From contig MU632242.1 of NCBI GenBank assembly GCA_026770615.1, positions 5,980 to 17,774 of the forward strand: a stretch of DNA of 11,795 nucleotides. The letters run 5' to 3'. The DNA comes from Pavlovales sp. CCMP2436 (Eukaryota > Haptophyta > Pavlovophyceae > Pavlovales). The notes beneath the pieces are model-generated. The model was given only the letters and a program-made list of their open reading frames with translations, searched no databases and was not told where the DNA came from. Within the stretch, counting starts at the first letter, position 1; each line of letters starts with the position of its first letter. A program made the translations under genes and the position numbers. Positions 3-11,415 of this stretch are shown one piece after another.

Positions 3-3000
3 GCCGCGGGCGCCGCGACGCGCTGGGAGCTGGGCGGTGCGCTCGCGGCGTACGTTGCCTGGCGCGAGGTTGCGCGCGGCCGCCGGCTGCAGCTGGCCGC
101 GCTGGTCCACCTGATGCACGGCGCGTTCCTGCGCGGCTTCGCCGCGTGGGCGGGAGCGCACAGCCGCGCGGCCGCGGGCAGGGCGCTTGTCTCCGAGGCC
201 CTTGGCCGCTGGGCGTCGGCTGGTTTGGCCGCAGCGACGCGTGCGTGGGTCGCGGGCGCACGCCTCCGCCGCCTCACTGCCCACGCAAGCTTGCGCTGGC
301 TGCGCGTGGGCAAGGCCCGCGGCTGGCGCGCCTGGCGTGTGTTCGCGCTTGCACGCCGCCCCCTGGTCGCGGGCGCGCTGCCGATCGAGCCGCGCCTGCG
401 CGCTGCGGTCGCGCGCTGGCGCTTCGCGGCGGCTGGGGCGCGCAACGCGCTCGCGCTCGCGCTGGCGCGCTCGCTCGAGGGCGCAACTGCCGCGTCCTTC
501 CGGCGGTGGACGCAGGTGTCGCGCGTCTCGCGCTCGGCCGCGTCGTTCGACGCCGCGATGCTGCTCGCAGCTCACCGCAGCTCGTGGGCTGGCTGGCGCT
601 CCGTGAGCGGCGCGTGGGCGATGGCGCTGCGCGCGGCACAAAGCTGGCGCCTCTCCGCGCAGTCGGCGGCTGTGCGGCGCTGGTCGGCGCGTGCGTGCGC
701 GCAGGCCGCGCTGACGAGCGGGCTGCGGCGCTGGTCGGCGGGCGCGTCCGGGCGCGCGCTTGACCAGTGGCGCCTGTTTACGGACCGGCGGCACGGCGCC
801 GGCGCGCTGGCCGCCTCGACGCTGCTCCACTGGCGGGCGCGCCTGCTCGGCCTCGCGCTGTGCCGCTGGCTCGCGTCGAGCTCCGGCGGCGCGCGCGCAC
901 ACTCGGTGGGCAGGCTCGCCGCGCTGCGCTGGGCCGGCGCGGCGCTCGGCCGCTGCCAGCGTGCGTGGGGGGCCGAGGCCGCGCGCTTTATTGCCGCGCG
1001 CGCCGCGGCGCGCACGCTGCGCACAGGCCGCACGGGCCGGTCGCTGCGCACATGGCGCGCGGCGCGCACGCTGGCGGCGGCGGCGGCCCGCCTCGGCGAG
1101 GCGGTGCGGGCCGCACTACGCGACGCGTGCGCGCGGCTGCGGCAGCACGCGGCGCTGCGCGCGCTCGCCGCCGATCTCGTCGGCCTTTCCCGGGCGTACG
1201 ACGAACAGCGGCGACTGGCACGGCTGCTCGCCTCGTGGGTGCGCCACGCCTTCGCCGCGCTTGGGCGCGCGTCGTCGGCGCAGATGGCGCGCGCGGCGCT
1301 CCTCGCGCGCGCTGGGCTTGCACTCGGCCTGTGCGCCGACTGGGCCCGCCTGCGCGGCGTGCAGCGCGAGCTGCGCGCGCGCGTGAGCGCGCACAGCGCG
1401 CTGCGGCTGCGCGCAAGCGCGCTCGGCCGGTGGGCCCGTGCTGCGGCAACCGGCGCGCCCGGCGCGTCGGCGTGCGCGGCGCTTGGGCCGCGGCGCGAGG
1501 CCGCGGCCCTGCGCGCCGCGCTGCGCGGCTGGCGCAGCCGCTGCGTGGCGCGCGCGGCGAGCGCGGCGGCGGCGGGCGCGCGTGCGCAGCGGGGCGCGGC
1601 GGGCGTGGCCTTCCGCCAGTGGACGCACGTCTCGCGGCTGACGCGCTCGGCGGCGTCCATCAAGCAGGTGACGCTTCGCGCCGCGCGCGCTGCCTCGTGG
1701 GCGCGGTGGCGCGGGGCGAGCGGCCTGCGGCGGCTGCTGAGCCGCGCCGCGCGCGGCCGGGCTGCGCGTGCGCCGGCGCGCGCGCTGCATCGCTGGTACG
1801 CGGGCGCGATCGGCTCGCTGCAGATCGCCTCGTCGCTGCGCCGATGGCGGCGCGCTTCCTCGGCGGGTGCGCTCGAGGCGTGGCGCGCGTGGCTCGACCG
1901 GCGGCACAGCGGCGGCGCGGTCGCGGCCGCCGCGCTGCTCCACTGGCAGCAGGGCGCGTCCGCGCGCGCCCGGCGCGCCTGGGCCGCCGCGGCCGCAGCG
2001 GCGCTCGAGCTGCTCGCCGTCGCGGCCGCCGCCTCGGCGCAGCGCGAGCTGCGCGACGCGCACCGCGGCGTGCGCGCGTGGGGCATGCACGTCGCGCGGC
2101 GCGTGCTAGTGCGCCGGGCTCGCGCCGCGGGCGTCGCCGCGCGGTGGGCGCGCGGGCTGCGCACGTGGAGGACGGGCGCGTGCGCGCCCGTGACGGCGAC
2201 CGTGCTCCGGCGGCGCGGCGCGCTCCGTGAAGCGCTCGCCAGCTGGCGCTCGGCCGCCGACCGCGCGGCGCGGGGGCGCGCCGCGCCCTGCCGGTGGGCC
2301 GCGGGCGCATCCGGGTGCGCGCTCGACCAGTGGCGCCTGTGGACAGACCGCGCGCACGGCGCCGGAGCGCTGGCGGCCGCCGCCGCGATCACGTGGCAGA
2401 GCCTCGCCCACCGCGCCGCGTGGCGCGCGTGGCTCGGGCGCGCGCGCGAGGCGTCCGCCCTCTCGGCTGCGGCCTCGGCGTGGCGCGCGCAGCGGCTCGG
2501 CGGCTGGCTCCGCCGCTGGCGGCGCGCGCAGTCCGGGCAGTTGGCGGCGGCCGCATCCGCCGTGTCAACGGCGCCCGCGGCCAGCCGGCTGCCGCCGGCG
2601 CTCGCGCTGTGGCGCGAGCAGTCGCGCCGCGCGACGGCGCGCTTCGAGCTGGCCGCCTCGTTCATCGCGCGGCTGGAGCTGCGGCGCGTGTTCACGGCCT
2701 ACCGCGCGTGGGCCAACGGCGTCTCGCTCGAGAGCCTCAGCGGCGAGCGCGCGCTCGCCTCGCGCCTGCGCGTGCTGCTCGAGGGCGTGCGCGCCTGGCG
2801 CGCGCGCTTTGCCGGCGCGATTCGGCTCGGCCGCGAGCTCGAGGTGCGGCTGCGCGCCGCCGCCGCCGCGCGCGCACTGCGCGCGTGGCGGCTGGCAGAC
2901 GGCACCAAGGCGGCACGCGCCCCGCCGCAGCTCACCGCCTGCGTGGCGCGGTGGCGCTCGGCCGCGGTGCTGCGCGGGATCGCCAGCATGCACCTCGCCG

Positions 3001-4043
3001 AGAGCACTGCACTCGCCGCCTTCTCGGCACAGCGGCACGCCGTCGCCGCGTGGGCGCTGCACGCGCTCCACCTGCGCGTCTTCGCGCTCGGCACGCTGCG
3101 CCGCGCGGAGGCGGACAACGCCTCGGCACTTGTCACGCTGCAGCTGTGGCGCGACACGACGCGCTACGCCATGGTGCGCGCGGCGCAGCGCGCTGCGACC
3201 GCGCAGCACGCCAAGCTGGCGGCGCTGTTGAGTGGCTGGCAGCAGCTGCGCGCCTACGCGCTCGTCGAGCTGCGCGCCGACGCGCTTGTCTCGGCGACCG
3301 TGGCCGACGGGGAGGAGTTGCGGCGCGCGTTCGGCCTGCTCCGTGTCTCGGCGAGCACAGCCGCCGACCGATCCATGGTCGAGCGGTGCGCGCGGGGCGC
3401 GCTGCGCTTGGTGCTGGCGCGGTGGCGCGACGAGTGCCTTGTGGTCGAGCGCGCGCTCGTGTCGAGCGCGGGCTTCGCAGTGCGCCAGGAGCTGCGGGCG
3501 ACGCTGCGCGCGTGGGCCGCGTGGCTCGCCCTGTTACAGGACGCCGCCGCCACGGCCGCACGGCGCGCCGGCGCAATCGAGCGACGCGCGCAGGGCTCGC
3601 TACTCGCGGTGGTGGCGCTGTGGCGCGACGTGGCGAGCGTTGCCGTCGTGCGCGCCGAGCTCGGCGCCGCCATCGCGCAGCACGCGCGCGCGCACGCGCT
3701 GGCGTGCGCGTGGCGCTGCGTGTGCGCCTACATCGTCACCGAGCTACGCGGGCGCGCGCCAGTGACGTCGGCGCGTGTGCAAGTGCGCCGGGCCTTCACG
3801 CAGCTCAAGCGGCGGAGCGAGGTAACGCGGCCCATTGGCGTTGTTACCACTGGGGGGGCCGACCATGCGTTTGCCCGCTGGCGCGTCTACGAGACACTGC
3901 GCGTGTGCACCGCGACGCGAGCCACGCTGGTCAGCGACTACCGTCTGCTGCGCGGGCTCACGCACGCGCTGTTCGCCTGGCGCGAGTACAGCCTGCTGCA
4001 GCACCTGTTCGACGGCTGGCGCGTCAGCAGCCTGCGAGACTGA
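3..4043 (+). CDS. Sfi1-like Trp-repeat protein, 3' part of gene
   Basis: The frame is open from base 3 with no stop upstream, so the gene starts outside the window; the first visible ATG is at 114 but is probably internal. 1,346 residues end at TGA (4041-4043). Trp recurs through the protein in short helical phrases of the type LRRW, ALDQWR, FRRW, LLHW and LALWRD, separated by Ala/Arg/Leu-rich helix. This is the look of Sfi1-type centrin-binding repeats, which form long helical fibres at centrosomes and basal bodies; that role is inferred from repeat style, and no other domain is seen. GC is extreme and codon third positions are nearly all G or C, so several other frames are open by chance. 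No intron is visible. Duplications occur at residues 166-277/537-648 and about 1049-1106/1207-1261. It could instead be another Ala/Arg-rich helical protein. Confidence 0.8.
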   Translation, partial: AAGAATRWELGGALAAYVAWREVARGRRLQLAALVHLMHGAFLRGFAAWAGAHSRAAAGRALVSEALGRWASAGLAAATRAWVAGARLRRLTAHASLRWLRVGKARGWRAWRVFALARRPLVAGALPIEPRLRAAVARWRFAAAGARNALALALARSLEGATAASFRRWTQVSRVSRSAASFDAAMLLAAHRSSWAGWRSVSGAWAMALRAAQSWRLSAQSAAVRRWSARACAQAALTSGLRRWSAGASGRALDQWRLFTDRRHGAGALAASTLLHWRARLLGLALCRWLASSSGGARAHSVGRLAALRWAGAALGRCQRAWGAEAARFIAARAAARTLRTGRTGRSLRTWRAARTLAAAAARLGEAVRAALRDACARLRQHAALRALAADLVGLSRAYDEQRRLARLLASWVRHAFAALGRASSAQMARAALLARAGLALGLCADWARLRGVQRELRARVSAHSALRLRASALGRWARAAATGAPGASACAALGPRREAAALRAALRGWRSRCVARAASAAAAGARAQRGAAGVAFRQWTHVSRLTRSAASIKQVTLRAARAASWARWRGASGLRRLLSRAARGRAARAPARALHRWYAGAIGSLQIASSLRRWRRASSAGALEAWRAWLDRRHSGGAVAAAALLHWQQGASARARRAWAAAAAAALELLAVAAAASAQRELRDAHRGVRAWGMHVARRVLVRRARAAGVAARWARGLRTWRTGACAPVTATVLRRRGALREALASWRSAADRAARGRAAPCRWAAGASGCALDQWRLWTDRAHGAGALAAAAAITWQSLAHRAAWRAWLGRAREASALSAAASAWRAQRLGGWLRRWRRAQSGQLAAAASAVSTAPAASRLPPALALWREQSRRATARFELAASFIARLELRRVFTAYRAWANGVSLESLSGERALASRLRVLLEGVRAWRARFAGAIRLGRELEVRLRAAAAARALRAWRLADGTKAARAPPQLTACVARWRSAAVLRGIASMHLAESTALAAFSAQRHAVAAWALHALHLRVFALGTLRRAEADNASALVTLQLWRDTTRYAMVRAAQRAATAQHAKLAALLSGWQQLRAYALVELRADALVSATVADGEELRRAFGLLRVSASTAADRSMVERCARGALRLVLARWRDECLVVERALVSSAGFAVRQELRATLRAWAAWLALLQDAAATAARRAGAIERRAQGSLLAVVALWRDVASVAVVRAELGAAIAQHARAHALACAWRCVCAYIVTELRGRAPVTSARVQVRRAFTQLKRRSEVTRPIGVVTTGGADHAFARWRVYETLRVCTATRATLVSDYRLLRGLTHALFAWREYSLLQHLFDGWRVSSLRD
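498..833 (+). repeat. Internal duplication in Sfi1-like gene, copy 1
   Basis: Residues 166-277 (numbered from base 3) run from FRRWTQVSRVSRSAAS to LLHW. The copy at 1611-1946 has the same order of motifs (FRQWTHVSRLTRSAAS, then LDRRH, then LLHW) at a constant offset of 1,113 nt, which is 371 codons, with no net indel over 112 codons. This shows one multi-repeat block was duplicated as a unit. Confidence 0.8.
1611..1946 (+). repeat. Internal duplication in Sfi1-like gene, copy 2
   Basis: This is the partner of 498-833. Matched landmarks are FRQW at 1611, LDRRHSGGA near 1893 and LLHW ending at 1946. Divergence is greater in the middle than at the two ends. A third, shorter relative of its end lies at 2304-2396. 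Confidence 0.8.
2304..2396 (+). repeat. Third partial copy of the LDQWR-TDR unit
   Basis: GAS-CALDQWRLWTDR-HGAGALAA repeats the phrase at 741-815. Over the 75 nt 741-815 versus 2304-2378 I count 64 identical bases. This is closer than either is to the corresponding part of copy 2, which suggests a later exchange or gene conversion between copies 1 and 3. Confidence 0.75.
3147..3785 (+). repeat. C-terminal duplicated block in Sfi1-like gene
   Basis: Two blocks begin at LWRD with Trp codons at 3147 and 3621, an offset of 474 nt or 158 codons. Each continues VRA, QHA, a central Trp, an AY dipeptide and ELR (3264 and 3738, same offset). The following RRAF motif lies at 3321 and 3786, so a three-codon indel separates the copies there. 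These repeats are less GC-extreme and more diverged than the N-terminal ones. Confidence 0.7.
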
Positions 4044-4255
4044 GCCTGCTCCTGCTGCCTGCATGATGATCCTGCACAGTCCGTGGGGCTTTGCACCTGC
4101 CTGCATATAAACCTACATATATCTATATTACTGATATGGATCAAGCTGACGTCTGACTGCTGGCGCTACGCATATTGATATATATAAGTTGTATGTGATG
4201 CACTGATCACTTGACACACAGCGACATGACCACTGACGTTTGGCTAAATATGCGA

Positions 4256-4273
4256 TAACAGTTATAACTGTTA
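4256..4273. repeat. 18-bp perfect palindrome
   Basis: TAACAGTTATAACTGTTA equals its own reverse complement. It runs straight into GTTACATGTGTAAC (4270-4283), a second imperfect inverted repeat sharing four bases with it. Function is unknown; it could extrude a cruciform or bind a dimeric protein. Confidence 0.85.
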
Positions 4274-4660
4274 CATGTGTAACTAGTTGCATGTACATAT
4301 TATGGTCGCTGCTCTCCTTCCTCATCTTCGCCATCGGGGTGTTCCTCGCCGATCGGTGGCGTTCCATCTCGGGGGCGATGAGCGCCGGTCGGCCGTGCCG
4401 TGCCAGAGCCAAGTCGCCGTGAGAGAAGGAGAAGGGGGATAAAGGGGAAGCGGAGAAGGCGAGCTAGGCCTAGAGCAGAGTTGCTGCGGCTCGGTACGCG
4501 CGCGATCCAACGGGCAGATGCTGTGCTGTGGAGTGTGGTCGTGGGCAGCTACTCGCTATGACGAGTTAAGCGAGCAGGTGCTGGGCACGGCGGGGGTCCA
4601 TATACGTAAGCTCAGTGGCCACCCGTTCGTATTATATCATTATAGTTGGTGATTGTTGTT

Positions 4661-4664
4661 TATT
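4661..4664. repeat. Target-site duplication, left (TATT)
   Basis: TATT abuts the left inverted repeat and is repeated at 7821-7824 after the right one. The fifth outward base differs, so the duplication is 4 bp. A chance 4-base match is 1 in 256; its exact position against both repeat ends makes it credible. Confidence 0.75.
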
Positions 4665-4717
4665 GGCTATGGCTCAGGTCACCCCCTGACAGCTATTAAG
4701 TGGGCGAAGACCATCTA
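4665..4717 (+). repeat. Left terminal inverted repeat
   Basis: The outer 28 bases begin GGCTATGGCTCAGG and end CCTGACAG at 4692. Then come 13 bases absent from the right arm (4693-4705), then 12 more shared bases (GAAGACCATCTA). A small internal hairpin, GTCA-CCCCC-TGAC, lies within the outer part. Confidence 0.92.
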
Positions 4718-4792
4718 CCGAGATGAGAGCATTCCTGACGGGCTACGCCGAAATTTAAAGTGTTTATTGGTCGGGCTTAACGAGCTCTAATT

Positions 4793-4807
4793 TATAAAAA
4801 AAATCAG
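4793..4807 (+). promoter_or_regulatory. TATA-like element of the transposon gene
   Basis: TATAAAAAAAATCAG lies 133 bases upstream of the ATG at 4940, inside the transposon. A near-identical TATAAAAATCAG stands upstream of the zinc-finger gene at 8159-8170. A promoter role is inferred only from sequence and position. Confidence 0.35.
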
Positions 4808-5599
4808 ATTCAAGTCTTCATGGGCGAGCCAGGGATCAATAACTAACGCGCGCCGATTTTAAACATGTTTCGAACCGTTTTTTAAACCCTACTTCTGCTC
4901 TGGATCGCTCCAGACTTGCAGCATCCGCCCGCCGCTGCGATGTCGCTCCGCTGGCCAGAGCCGCTCGCTGTGCTCGTCGGCAAAAGCGTTGATGACCTCC
5001 TTGCGCGCTTGTGCAATGAGGACAACGTGCACTCCGCGGAGACGGGGGGGAGCGCAGCCAAGCGCGAGTACGTTCAGGTGTCGCTCAGCTGCTGCCGGGC
5101 GGTGGACCCAACGAAGCGGATGCAGCTCAAGTGCAGTACCTCGGCTGTGCACCCCATGCTGCAGCATGCGATCTTGCAGCTCGTCAACGAGAATCTCGCA
5201 ACGCACCACTGCCGCGTGCAGCTCGAGCCCGAGCCCGCGCCGCCCGAGCTGGTGCCGCGCTTGTCGCGCGCGCGCTCGGAGCCGGCCGAGACCGGGCCTC
5301 CGCCGCTGTGGCGGGCGCGCAGCGCGCCCGAGTCCGTAGAGGCGAAGCGCGGGCGCACTGATGATGATGCAGACGACAACTGGACGACGTGGGACCTGCG
5401 CGAGCTCACTCGGCAAGAACAAATCTTCCACGCACGCGCTCAGGTGCCGATCGATGCAGACAACGGCGACGCATTCACTGCGCGGCAGCGCAGAGTTGCG
5501 CTTAACCACGCGCGCAGGGGTGTGCTCGCATCACTGCGTTATCACGCTGCCGGCTCTGCTGAGCGCGTTGCCGATCTCATCGTCGGTGCCGTGTCTGCG

Positions 5600-5618
5600 T
5601 TCGGCGTCGGCGAGCGAG
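5600..5618 (+). other. Frame change inside the transposon gene
   Basis: Frame 2 upstream and frame 3 downstream are both coherent, and the switch needs one extra base (or two missing). Downstream of the window, frame 2 degenerates to Arg-rich shadow text ending at 5653. No GT-AG intron fits such a short distance, so an indel is the simplest reading. The sequence here is rich in GCG/GGC repeats, where both replication slippage and sequencing error are common. Confidence 0.7.
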
Positions 5619-6458
5619 TCCTTCGAGGCGTTCGTGCCCGAGCGCGCGGCTAGTGGAGACGACGCGGCGGAGCCTGCGCTCTACATTGTGTCGCGGGCGC
5701 GCGAGGCCCTCTCCGACCTCAAGGAGTGCCAGACGGAGGCGCAGCGCGGCGAGTACTACGCCGCGCTCTGCGTACTCTCACCAGAGGCGGTGGTCGAGCG
5801 AGAGACGGGAGGCATGGGGCGGCGGGTGAAGGCAGCACTCGGCCTCAGCCGATCGAACGCAGTGTTCGACGAATGCCGAAAGATCCGCGCAGCTTTTGAC
5901 GCCTCGGTCCGGCGCAAGGAGGAACCGATCGCTGTGGGCGATAGCGTGCTGACGCGGAGCTCCACAGTTGCGGGCGTGGTGCGCGAGCTGCACCCCGATT
6001 CCTCTTGCACTGTCGAGTACACGGCGGAGGGCATGAGCACGCTGATTGAGTACAAGCACGCTGGCCGCCCGACAAAGGGTGTGCGCTCTGCTGCCGCGCC
6101 GATCGGCGCGCCCGCCGAGGAAGCCGCAGTGGCCGGGTTGTCTGGGCGGGCTGCTGGGGTCAGTGGGACTCGTCAGTTCGCGGCCCTCCGGCGACCACCT
6201 GTTCGGCTAGCGCCTTCTGCGCGCGCCGAGCGGAAAGACAAGCTTTCCGCTGCTGACGTGGCCAAAGTACACGCCTTCTTCTACGACAACGGTGCCGTCA
6301 GCCCGTGCACGCGCGACCGCGTGAGAAGGCACGTCGGCCCCAACCTTTGGCAAGTCGCGCAGGCGCTGGTCGCGATGCAGACTATGGACGCACTCTTCTC
6401 GCAGTTCCAGACCGAGAACGTCCTCTGCGGCACGGCGCTCAGCTATTCATCCTTTAAA

Positions 6459-6461
6459 TAG
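6459..6461 (+). other. In-frame TAG within the transposon gene
   Basis: The text before (LSYSSFK) and after (LAPWNLRRVKRETCSC) forms one continuous domain in frame 3, and the same frame stays open to 6896. The TAG therefore replaces a sense codon. It may be a nonsense mutation, a readthrough site or a recoded codon. Confidence 0.75.
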
Positions 6462-6779
6462 CTCGCGCCGTGGAACCTCCGGCGCGTCAAACGCGAGACA
6501 TGTTCGTGCCGTACTTGCGAACTGTACAAATGCTATCACGACGCAATGCACACGGTGCCCGCCATCTTCTCACTCCCAGACGCAACGCCCGCCGCATCGC
6601 CCGCTGCGGAAGTGCCTGCAGCAGCAAACGCATCATCCGCTGCGGGAGCGCCCGCCGCAGCACCTGCATCGCCCGCGGCTGATGCGCCAGCTGCCTCGCT
6701 TGGCAATGCTTGCTCAGACTACTCGAGCAAAGTCAGCCGCCTGCTCGAATTCAGCAGGCTCGAGTCCAAGCGCGAACAG

Positions 6780-6913
6780 GTAATCTCCTTTTTATGTGTG
6801 TGTGTGTTCAGTGTGTGTTGGAGGAGGGGGCGGGGGGGTTCTGACTCTGTTATACTATACTATATTTGTATGTGCGGTATCTACGGTGTGGATTAGTTAT
6901 TACGCTGACGGAG
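6780..6913 (+). other. Possible GT-AG intron or deletion scar
   Basis: CAG followed by GTAATC at 6780 is a good splice donor, and an AG ending at 6913 would join frame 3 to the downstream frame 2 exon (KREQ then KLIAARTFGCWCEC). The block contains GT runs, a G run (6826-6840) and a TATACTATACTATA stretch. Equally, KREQVISFLC may be coding read into low-complexity filler left by loss of the central domain. Confidence 0.45.
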
Positions 6914-7725
6914 AAGTTGATCGCGGCGCGCACTTTCGGCTGCTGGTGCGAGTGCTGCTGGGATTGCGTGTGCGCTGGGGGCATGGGCTCGACATGCCCG
7001 AGCCCCGCCGTAGGCTGCGGACGGCCGATGTGCGAGTGGGTCGTGCAGGAGCTGCATCAGATCGACGCGCGCACAGTGCAGAAGACGCGCACGACCGCGC
7101 AGGCGGCGGGCAAAGGATTCGCGAAGAAGCTGCGGCCAGGAGACTGGGTGGTCGCGCAAGCGCGCGAGTGTGGACGCGGGTGGGGGGCAGGGGATTGGTA
7201 CTGGATTGGGCAGGGTGCCGACGCAGGCGACGGCTCGTGCATCATCAAGGAGTTCACACACGCAGGCGGCAAGCTCGAGCAGACCACCTTCACCAAGGGC
7301 TACATCGCGCTTGCGGTTAAGTGGTTCGAACGCCACCCTGCCGACCCCGAGGGCATACATTTCGTCGAGTGGGATCCTGTGGCTGCCGGCAACGACCCCG
7401 ATGCCCGCTTTGTCCTCAACGCGACCGAGGTGCGCGCGGTAAACGTGAAGCTCAACGTGGTCCCGCCTGTTGGTCGGCCGCTTGTCGTCAGCCGGGCGCG
7501 CCGGTCGGGCGTGCAGCCGCGCGCACCCGAGGCACCGACGATCTGGGAGCTCCCCCGCAAGGCGCACGGCGAGATCCTCGCCACTCTGTGGTGATGGTCG
7601 CTGCTGGACGCGCTCCCGCACGCGGCGCAAGTTGAGAGTTTGCATGATCGAATTTAAATGTTAACACTTTTTCATGTGTATTTAATTAGAGCAAGGGAGT
7701 TGTTGGGAGCCGATAATATCTAAAA

Positions 7726-7731
7726 AATAAA
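7726..7731 (+). promoter_or_regulatory. AATAAA polyadenylation-type signal
   Basis: AATAAA lies 132 bases after the TGA at 7592-7594 and before the right inverted repeat, inside an A+T-rich stretch. It is placed correctly for the transposon transcript, but the motif is short and haptophyte-type genomes do not use it strictly. Confidence 0.35.
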
Positions 7732-7778
7732 ACCGAATCCACAAATCGCGATTTAGTTCAGAATATCCTGGCCACTTT

Positions 7779-7820
7779 TAGATGGTCTTCCCCTGTCAGG
7801 GGGTGACCTGAGCCATAGCC
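7779..7820 (-). repeat. Right terminal inverted repeat
   Basis: This is the reverse complement of the left arm: 28 perfect outer bases (7793-7820) and 12 inner bases (7779-7790), separated by only two bases. Its junction forms an odd palindrome CCCCTGTCAGGGG at 7790-7802 that the left arm lacks. Confidence 0.92.
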
Positions 7821-7824
7821 TATT
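7821..7824. repeat. Target-site duplication, right (TATT)
   Basis: This is the partner of 4661-4664. Removing the element and one copy gives an empty site reading GTTGTTTATTAACAG. Confidence 0.75.
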
Positions 7825-11193: not shown

Positions 11194-11415
11194 TATCCGT
11201 TCCATCCGTTCGTTACGTTCTCATCCGTTCACTAGAACGGATGTGTGTTCCGTTCTCGTCCGTTCTCGTCCGTTCTCGTCCGTTCATCTTTGCGAACGCA
11301 ATGAACGCATCTCTGAGAACGCAATAAACGTATTAAACGCAATGAACGCACCCTTAAAAAGTTTAATGAACGCAATGAGCGGATGGAGAACGGACGAGAA
11401 CGGATCAGAACGGAT
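11194..11415. repeat. Tandem and inverted CCGTTCTCGT / GAACGCAATG repeat block
   Basis: The left side has CCGTTC-type units, including three exact adjacent copies of CGTTCTCGTC (11251-11280). The right side has their reverse complements (GAACGGACGAGAACGGATC, 11388-11406 and following). Between them are four copies of GAACGCAATGAACGCA with small changes (11294-11309, 11317-11330, 11335-11350, 11368-11383). The whole block can fold as a long imperfect hairpin. Confidence 0.8.

Follow-up and report, generated by a model that had tools for sequence, protein, structure and literature searches.

The 11,795-nucleotide stretch of Pavlovales sp. CCMP2436 DNA analysed here (contig MU632242.1, positions 5,980 to 17,774; hereafter the window) carries a 3,156-bp insertion at window positions 4665-7820, which we read, with a probability of roughly 0.92, as a member of a cut-and-paste DNA transposon family, non-autonomous and with part of its interior deleted. 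The family has exact ends, a variable 4-bp target-site duplication (TSD), many copies, internal deletions and, for three other copies, uninterrupted sites; it also has a related transposase gene, whose product is predicted to possess an RNase H-like core. The element is of an ordinary kind, while its transposase is interesting and poorly named.

Ends, copies and target sites

At 4665-7820 a DNA transposon has inserted; its ends are defined to the base, and the target is duplicated over 4 bp. A preliminary description, made from the window alone, had claimed 28 perfect terminal inverted bases, 12 inner ones and a flanking direct repeat, TATT, and all three were borne out at the following positions:

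4661..4664, no strand: target-site duplication, left (TATT), from the sequence
4665..4692, + strand: left terminal inverted repeat, 28 bp, perfect, from the sequence and genome-wide end counts
4706..4717, + strand: inner inverted repeat, left, 12 bp, GAAGACCATCTA, from the sequence and the ends of 14 elements
7779..7790, - strand: inner inverted repeat, right, complement of GAAGACCATCTA, from the sequence and the ends of 14 elements
7793..7820, - strand: right terminal inverted repeat, 28 bp, perfect, from the sequence
7821..7824, no strand: target-site duplication, right (TATT), from the sequence

The flanks thus read ...GTTTATT, element, TATTAAC.... The 28-bp terminal inverted repeat (TIR) is the longest perfect inverted repeat of the window, compared with 13-17 bp in 50 Markov-1 controls. 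Variants of the inner 12-bp repeat occur at a roughly equal position in other copies (ends of 14 elements compared), and this repeat is a likely contact for the transposase.

The genome searched comprises 119 Mb in 703 contigs. A 21-nt end pattern, allowing up to three mismatches, matched 266 + 274 = 540 times genome-wide, as against 1 + 2 = 3 matches for the backward control in the same search; if every end were paired, this would correspond to about 270 copies. A DNA search with the whole element returned at least 109 matching pieces, the best 40 of 192 candidates having been scored. The further copies that the preliminary description had suggested seeking through the element ends are therefore numerous. 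It had also named similarity extending well past 4665 or 7820 as an observation that would speak against these borders; no such extension was seen. In most copies similarity ends within one or two bases of the element border, and the furthest overrun is 9 bases on the left (query 7, corresponding to window 4656) and 5 on the right (query 3176, corresponding to window 7825). The TIRs stand at the exact ends of the element, as is expected of cut-and-paste DDE/D DNA transposons.

Composite arrangements were also seen. Positions 2089-7542 of locus L023 form a 5,454-bp unit with the TSD TTAC; a further left end lies within it at 5435, which would suit a fusion or nesting of two family members. At L059 (G000:C102:316655-316810), two right family ends lie 85 bp apart.

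Target-site duplications were counted over 28 two-ended copies, namely the window copy, 12 others, L029 and 14 of 17 further end pairs. The 12 others come from the 20 loci of the first set, of which eight were dropped for having one end only or an unclear end set (L010, L011, L014, L016, L017, L020, L025 and L028); the left end of L009 was placed by hand, and the outermost ends were used for L023. L030, with one end only, and three of the 17 pairs, which lacked a second end, did not enter the count, and the last six single ends fetched were left unused. Identical 4-bp flanks were found in 18 of the 28 copies, including that of the window: TATT, ATAT, TTCG, TAAT, TACA, TTAC, CCTG, TGGG, TGTT, GACA, ATTT, CAGA, CGTA, TAGT, ACCT, TGAG, ATGC and TAAC. 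In five copies the flanks agree at three of four letters (L027, L052/53, L058/59, L060/61 and L064/65), and in the remaining five they disagree (L019, L024, L009, L048/49 and L066/67). By chance, about 0.1 exact 4-bp matches would be expected among 28 copies, assuming equal base frequencies. No fixed target sequence is seen among the 18 exact TSDs, and none of them is TTAA. The 4-bp duplications that the preliminary description proposed to look for at other copies are thus present, and together with the uninterrupted sites described below they constitute the fixed-length TSD of a cut-and-paste DDE/D element.

For the latter, flanks were joined through one copy of the TSD and searched against the genome for 11 copies (window, L013, L015, L018, L026, L023, L012, L022, L021, L029 and L027); L019, L024 and L009 stood outside this search. 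Among seven of these copies (L013, L015, L018, L026, L023, L012 and L022; best 40 of 104 candidates scored), uninterrupted sites were found for L015 and L026. All five related repeats of L015 are gapless at the junction, yet carry GTCG in place of the TSD sequence TTCG, and all five of L026 have a 2-bp indel at the junction. The search that returned L021 took in 11 copies, the L027 query being shortened, and scored the best 40 of 1202 candidates; L021 accounted for 46 of its 47 matches, leaving L029 and L027 in effect uncovered. All six related repeats fetched for L021 run exactly through the junction, with a 1-bp indel three bases off. The joined flanks of the window copy match only the window's own two flanks, and the suggested empty allele is accordingly absent elsewhere in this assembly. 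An inverted repeat produced by chance or by assembly, in place of a mobile element, is refuted by the 540 ends against three control matches, by exact TSDs of varying sequence at other copies and by the uninterrupted related sites.

Full-length relatives and the internal deletion

The transposase gene was read from two longer relatives, L029, a 4,905-bp family member with the TSD GACA, and L030, which together suggest at least three exons. P0001, a 982-residue protein from an MMETSP transcriptome source, shares 95% identity with the query built from L030, and its exons are joined precisely at the predicted junctions. Its first 43-48 residues have no match to the element, so that the gene start is provisional, and it leaves the common frame near residue 891. 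Neither of the two genomic copies read is intact: exon 2 of L029 contains one stop and one frame shift, and the acceptor site of L030 is changed.

Three acids, D424, D582 and D624, are invariant in all six sequences of alignment A3, and the third, D624, falls where the helix following beta-5 begins, according to the alignment and a predicted model. Predicted models and alignment place the three acids in an RNase H-like core, and the family transposase is, by prediction, a DDE/D enzyme of RNase H-like fold. The group to which it belongs has the motif D-x-[SA]-E-N ... [ST]-D-[NG]-A ... G-H-G-K-G-x-W-D-G.

Against these relatives, the interior of the window copy resolves as follows:

4847..6779, + strand: remnant of transposase exon 1 (P0001 residues 49-281 match 6099-6797)
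6795..6912, no strand: deletion scar (comparison with L029)
6899..7594, + strand: remnant of exon 3, comprising a cysteine-rich region and the C-terminal beta domain (P0001 residues 716-891 match 6899-7426)

The exon 1 remnant is disrupted twice, by a frame shift near 5616-5623 and by a stop codon in frame at 6459-6461. It ends at a GT donor at 6780 that is common to the window copy and L029, whose junction P0001 confirms; the last few P0001-matching residues fall past this donor. The exon 3 remnant is carried by an open reading frame at 6866-7594 (242 aa). Relative to L029, about 1.9 kb is gone (L029-element positions about 2093-3972): at the scar, positions 2131 and 2249 of the window element abut L029 positions 2093 and 3972, and 117 bases within the scar do not align to L029. 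The lost stretch comprises most of intron 1, exon 2, intron 2 and the first part of exon 3 with D424, D582 and D624. P0001 residues 282-715 consequently find no match in the window copy, which lacks the catalytic core. Because some 1.9 kb including the three proposed catalytic acids has been deleted, the copy is non-autonomous, and the earlier label of a complete DNA transposon holds for its ends but not for its interior.

Eight other copies regain similarity to L029 at position 3745. Their left deletion border lies at 2090-2093 in six (L009, L012, L013, L019, L021 and L022), 2138 in L018 and 1882 in L024, but can be placed only approximately, as the sequences diverge in this region close to the beginning of intron 1. 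Since the right breakpoint is shared, these copies suggest a subfamily that descends from a deletion; in the window copy, sequence beyond that deletion has been lost as well. Different deletions occur in L015, L026 and L027, and L015 keeps the D624 region while the other two acids are gone.

It is improbable that core-deleted copies have been retained for a useful truncated protein, such as a repressor or an end-binding protein. Such retention would agree with the exon 3 remnant of 10 core-deleted copies, where codon positions 1, 2 and 3 differ at 4.4, 4.8 and 7.8%. Exon 1 of the same copies, however, has no third-position excess (5.1, 6.3 and 5.0%), five copies of the long group show a modest excess (4.2, 4.5 and 6.5%), the codon-position counts carry no control for base composition, and exon 1 of the window copy is broken.

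Homologues and known superfamilies

Pfam gave no convincing transposase family for the open reading frames of the window, the long relatives or the homologues, of which 60 of 70 were scanned at E<=0.5 (P0061-P0070 lay outside the scan). A transposase model appeared in one of the 60 (Transposase_32, a weak match at E 0.006) and an integrase model in none. By sequence, no relative was found among PDB chains (best E 1.4). Foldseek against PDB and viral structures returned nothing at E<=0.001; its PDB matches include four Tudor chains with probability 1.00 and E 0.085-0.31. The homologues come from several metagenome sources. Similar proteins with the HGKG motif probably occur in animals too. In viral contigs a single peptide pattern yielded 18 matches but no relatives; pattern matching in prokaryote genomes gave 11 matches with one relative. 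This relative, L047, is a frame-broken transposase relative on a 3.1-kb contig of a delta-proteobacterial metagenome-assembled genome, and is likely a eukaryotic carry-over contaminating the bin. Within the Pavlovales genome, a search with P0002 gave 60 matches that, compared by eye, are places of the same family, and the more distant P0012 gave 17 weak matches, all of which overlap known family places.

An RNA recognition motif (RRM), an uncommon partner for a transposase, was also encountered. RRM_1 was reported in four of the 60 homologues (best E 5.7e-07). A separate Pfam scan gave P0018 at E 8.4e-05 and P0025 at E 0.0021 (below its cut-off), and P0032 bears an RNA recognition motif in its precomputed annotation.

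A literature search for the motif letters returned nothing relevant, and no description of the family was found in the literature searched; Repbase and Dfam lay outside the search. The family appears to be unlisted in the resources consulted (Pfam and the literature). To this extent the earlier suggestion of an undescribed family stands. The predicted enzyme type and the 4-bp TSD also occur in known superfamilies, most notably in Sola.

Sola is the closest known system by its published features, the comparison being with descriptions only. Published accounts describe a DDD transposase, a 4-bp TSD, a length of mostly 2-9 kb and TIRs of 11-1124 bp (PMC10741241), and for Sola2 4-bp TSDs that are AT-rich in the cases described (AWWT; ATAT, AAAT, ATTT) (PMC3627910). 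The present family would share the DDD transposase (D624 as third acid, from alignment and model) and has the 4-bp TSD, and its 4.9-kb element and 28-bp TIR fall inside these published ranges. Its TSDs, in contrast, include TTCG, GACA, CCTG, TGGG, CAGA and CGTA and so are not AT-rich as in the Sola2 cases, although those cases may not define all Sola2. We put the chances at about even that the known Sola superfamily includes this family as one of its lineages, perhaps a Sola2-like one, and that it is new at the family level only.

The piggyBac transposase has a DDD triad, as is predicted for the present family. Its elements have a 4-bp TSD and termini CC..GG (PMC10045372), the TSD being TTAA (PMC9587614); the 4-bp length is common to both, whereas no exact TSD here is TTAA and the termini are GG..CC. 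Kolobok likewise resembles the family in its 4-bp TSD and 5'-RR..YY-3' ends, and the KolobokP lineage has TSDs other than TTAA, 3-5 bp long (PMC9587614). The first-described Kolobok, however, is TTAA-specific, which none of the 18 exact TSDs here matches. Of seven homologues examined, two (P0002 and P0004) carry the C/DxxH motif of Kolobok between the second and third acids, as CAGH/CPGH, and five, P0001 among them, lack it. Among integrase-like transposons, Ginger1 has a 4-bp TSD (PMC10045372), and the fold predicted here is integrase-like, but the 60 homologues scanned at E<=0.5 lack a Pfam integrase model. Mos1 and Tc1-mariner are comparable in fold only: no sequence similarity to them was found, and the Tc1-mariner TSD is the dinucleotide TA (PMC10045372) as opposed to 4 bp.

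More tentatively, the GHGKGxWDG transposases might form an unnamed superfamily of DDD cut-and-paste enzymes, probably widespread in protists and some with an RRM, in which the present family would be marked by a small beta domain within the RNase H core and by 4-bp targets without evident sequence preference. The near absence of Pfam transposase and integrase models, the lack of a PDB sequence relative and the several metagenome sources of the homologues point this way. Pfam does not cover every superfamily, however, so that its silence does not set the group apart from Sola or from other superfamilies. On balance, we regard such a superfamily as rather unlikely.

Neighbouring features, proposed transposition cycle and significance

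Elsewhere in the window, a very long GC-rich frame of 1,346 codons (3-4043), open at the window start, contains many spaced tryptophan-arginine motifs, which we take to recall Sfi1-type centrin-binding repeats; its part at 114-4040 has no Pfam match. A 29-nt inverted repeat (93%) at 11249-11277 and 11386-11414, with arms 108 nt apart, is built on the 10-bp tandem unit TCCGTTCTCG and is possibly a small foldback element or one resembling a miniature inverted-repeat transposable element.

For the transposon family itself, a cut-and-paste cycle can be proposed. The transposase of full-length relatives would bind the 28-bp TIRs together with the inner repeat of 12 bp, pair the ends and excise the element by means of a D424-D582-D624 metal site. 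The excised element would then be joined to its target with a 4-bp stagger, the repair of which would generate the TSD. The window copy would be movable only by a transposase acting in trans.

For general biology this is an ordinary mobile element. Its base-exact ends, target rule, uninterrupted sites, spliced gene model and predicted fold concern a transposase group that is unnamed in Pfam and make it possible to recognise members of this group as transposases when they are met in metagenomes or eukaryotic genomes. Furthermore, the family illustrates how deletion derivatives with a common breakpoint have spread through one genome.
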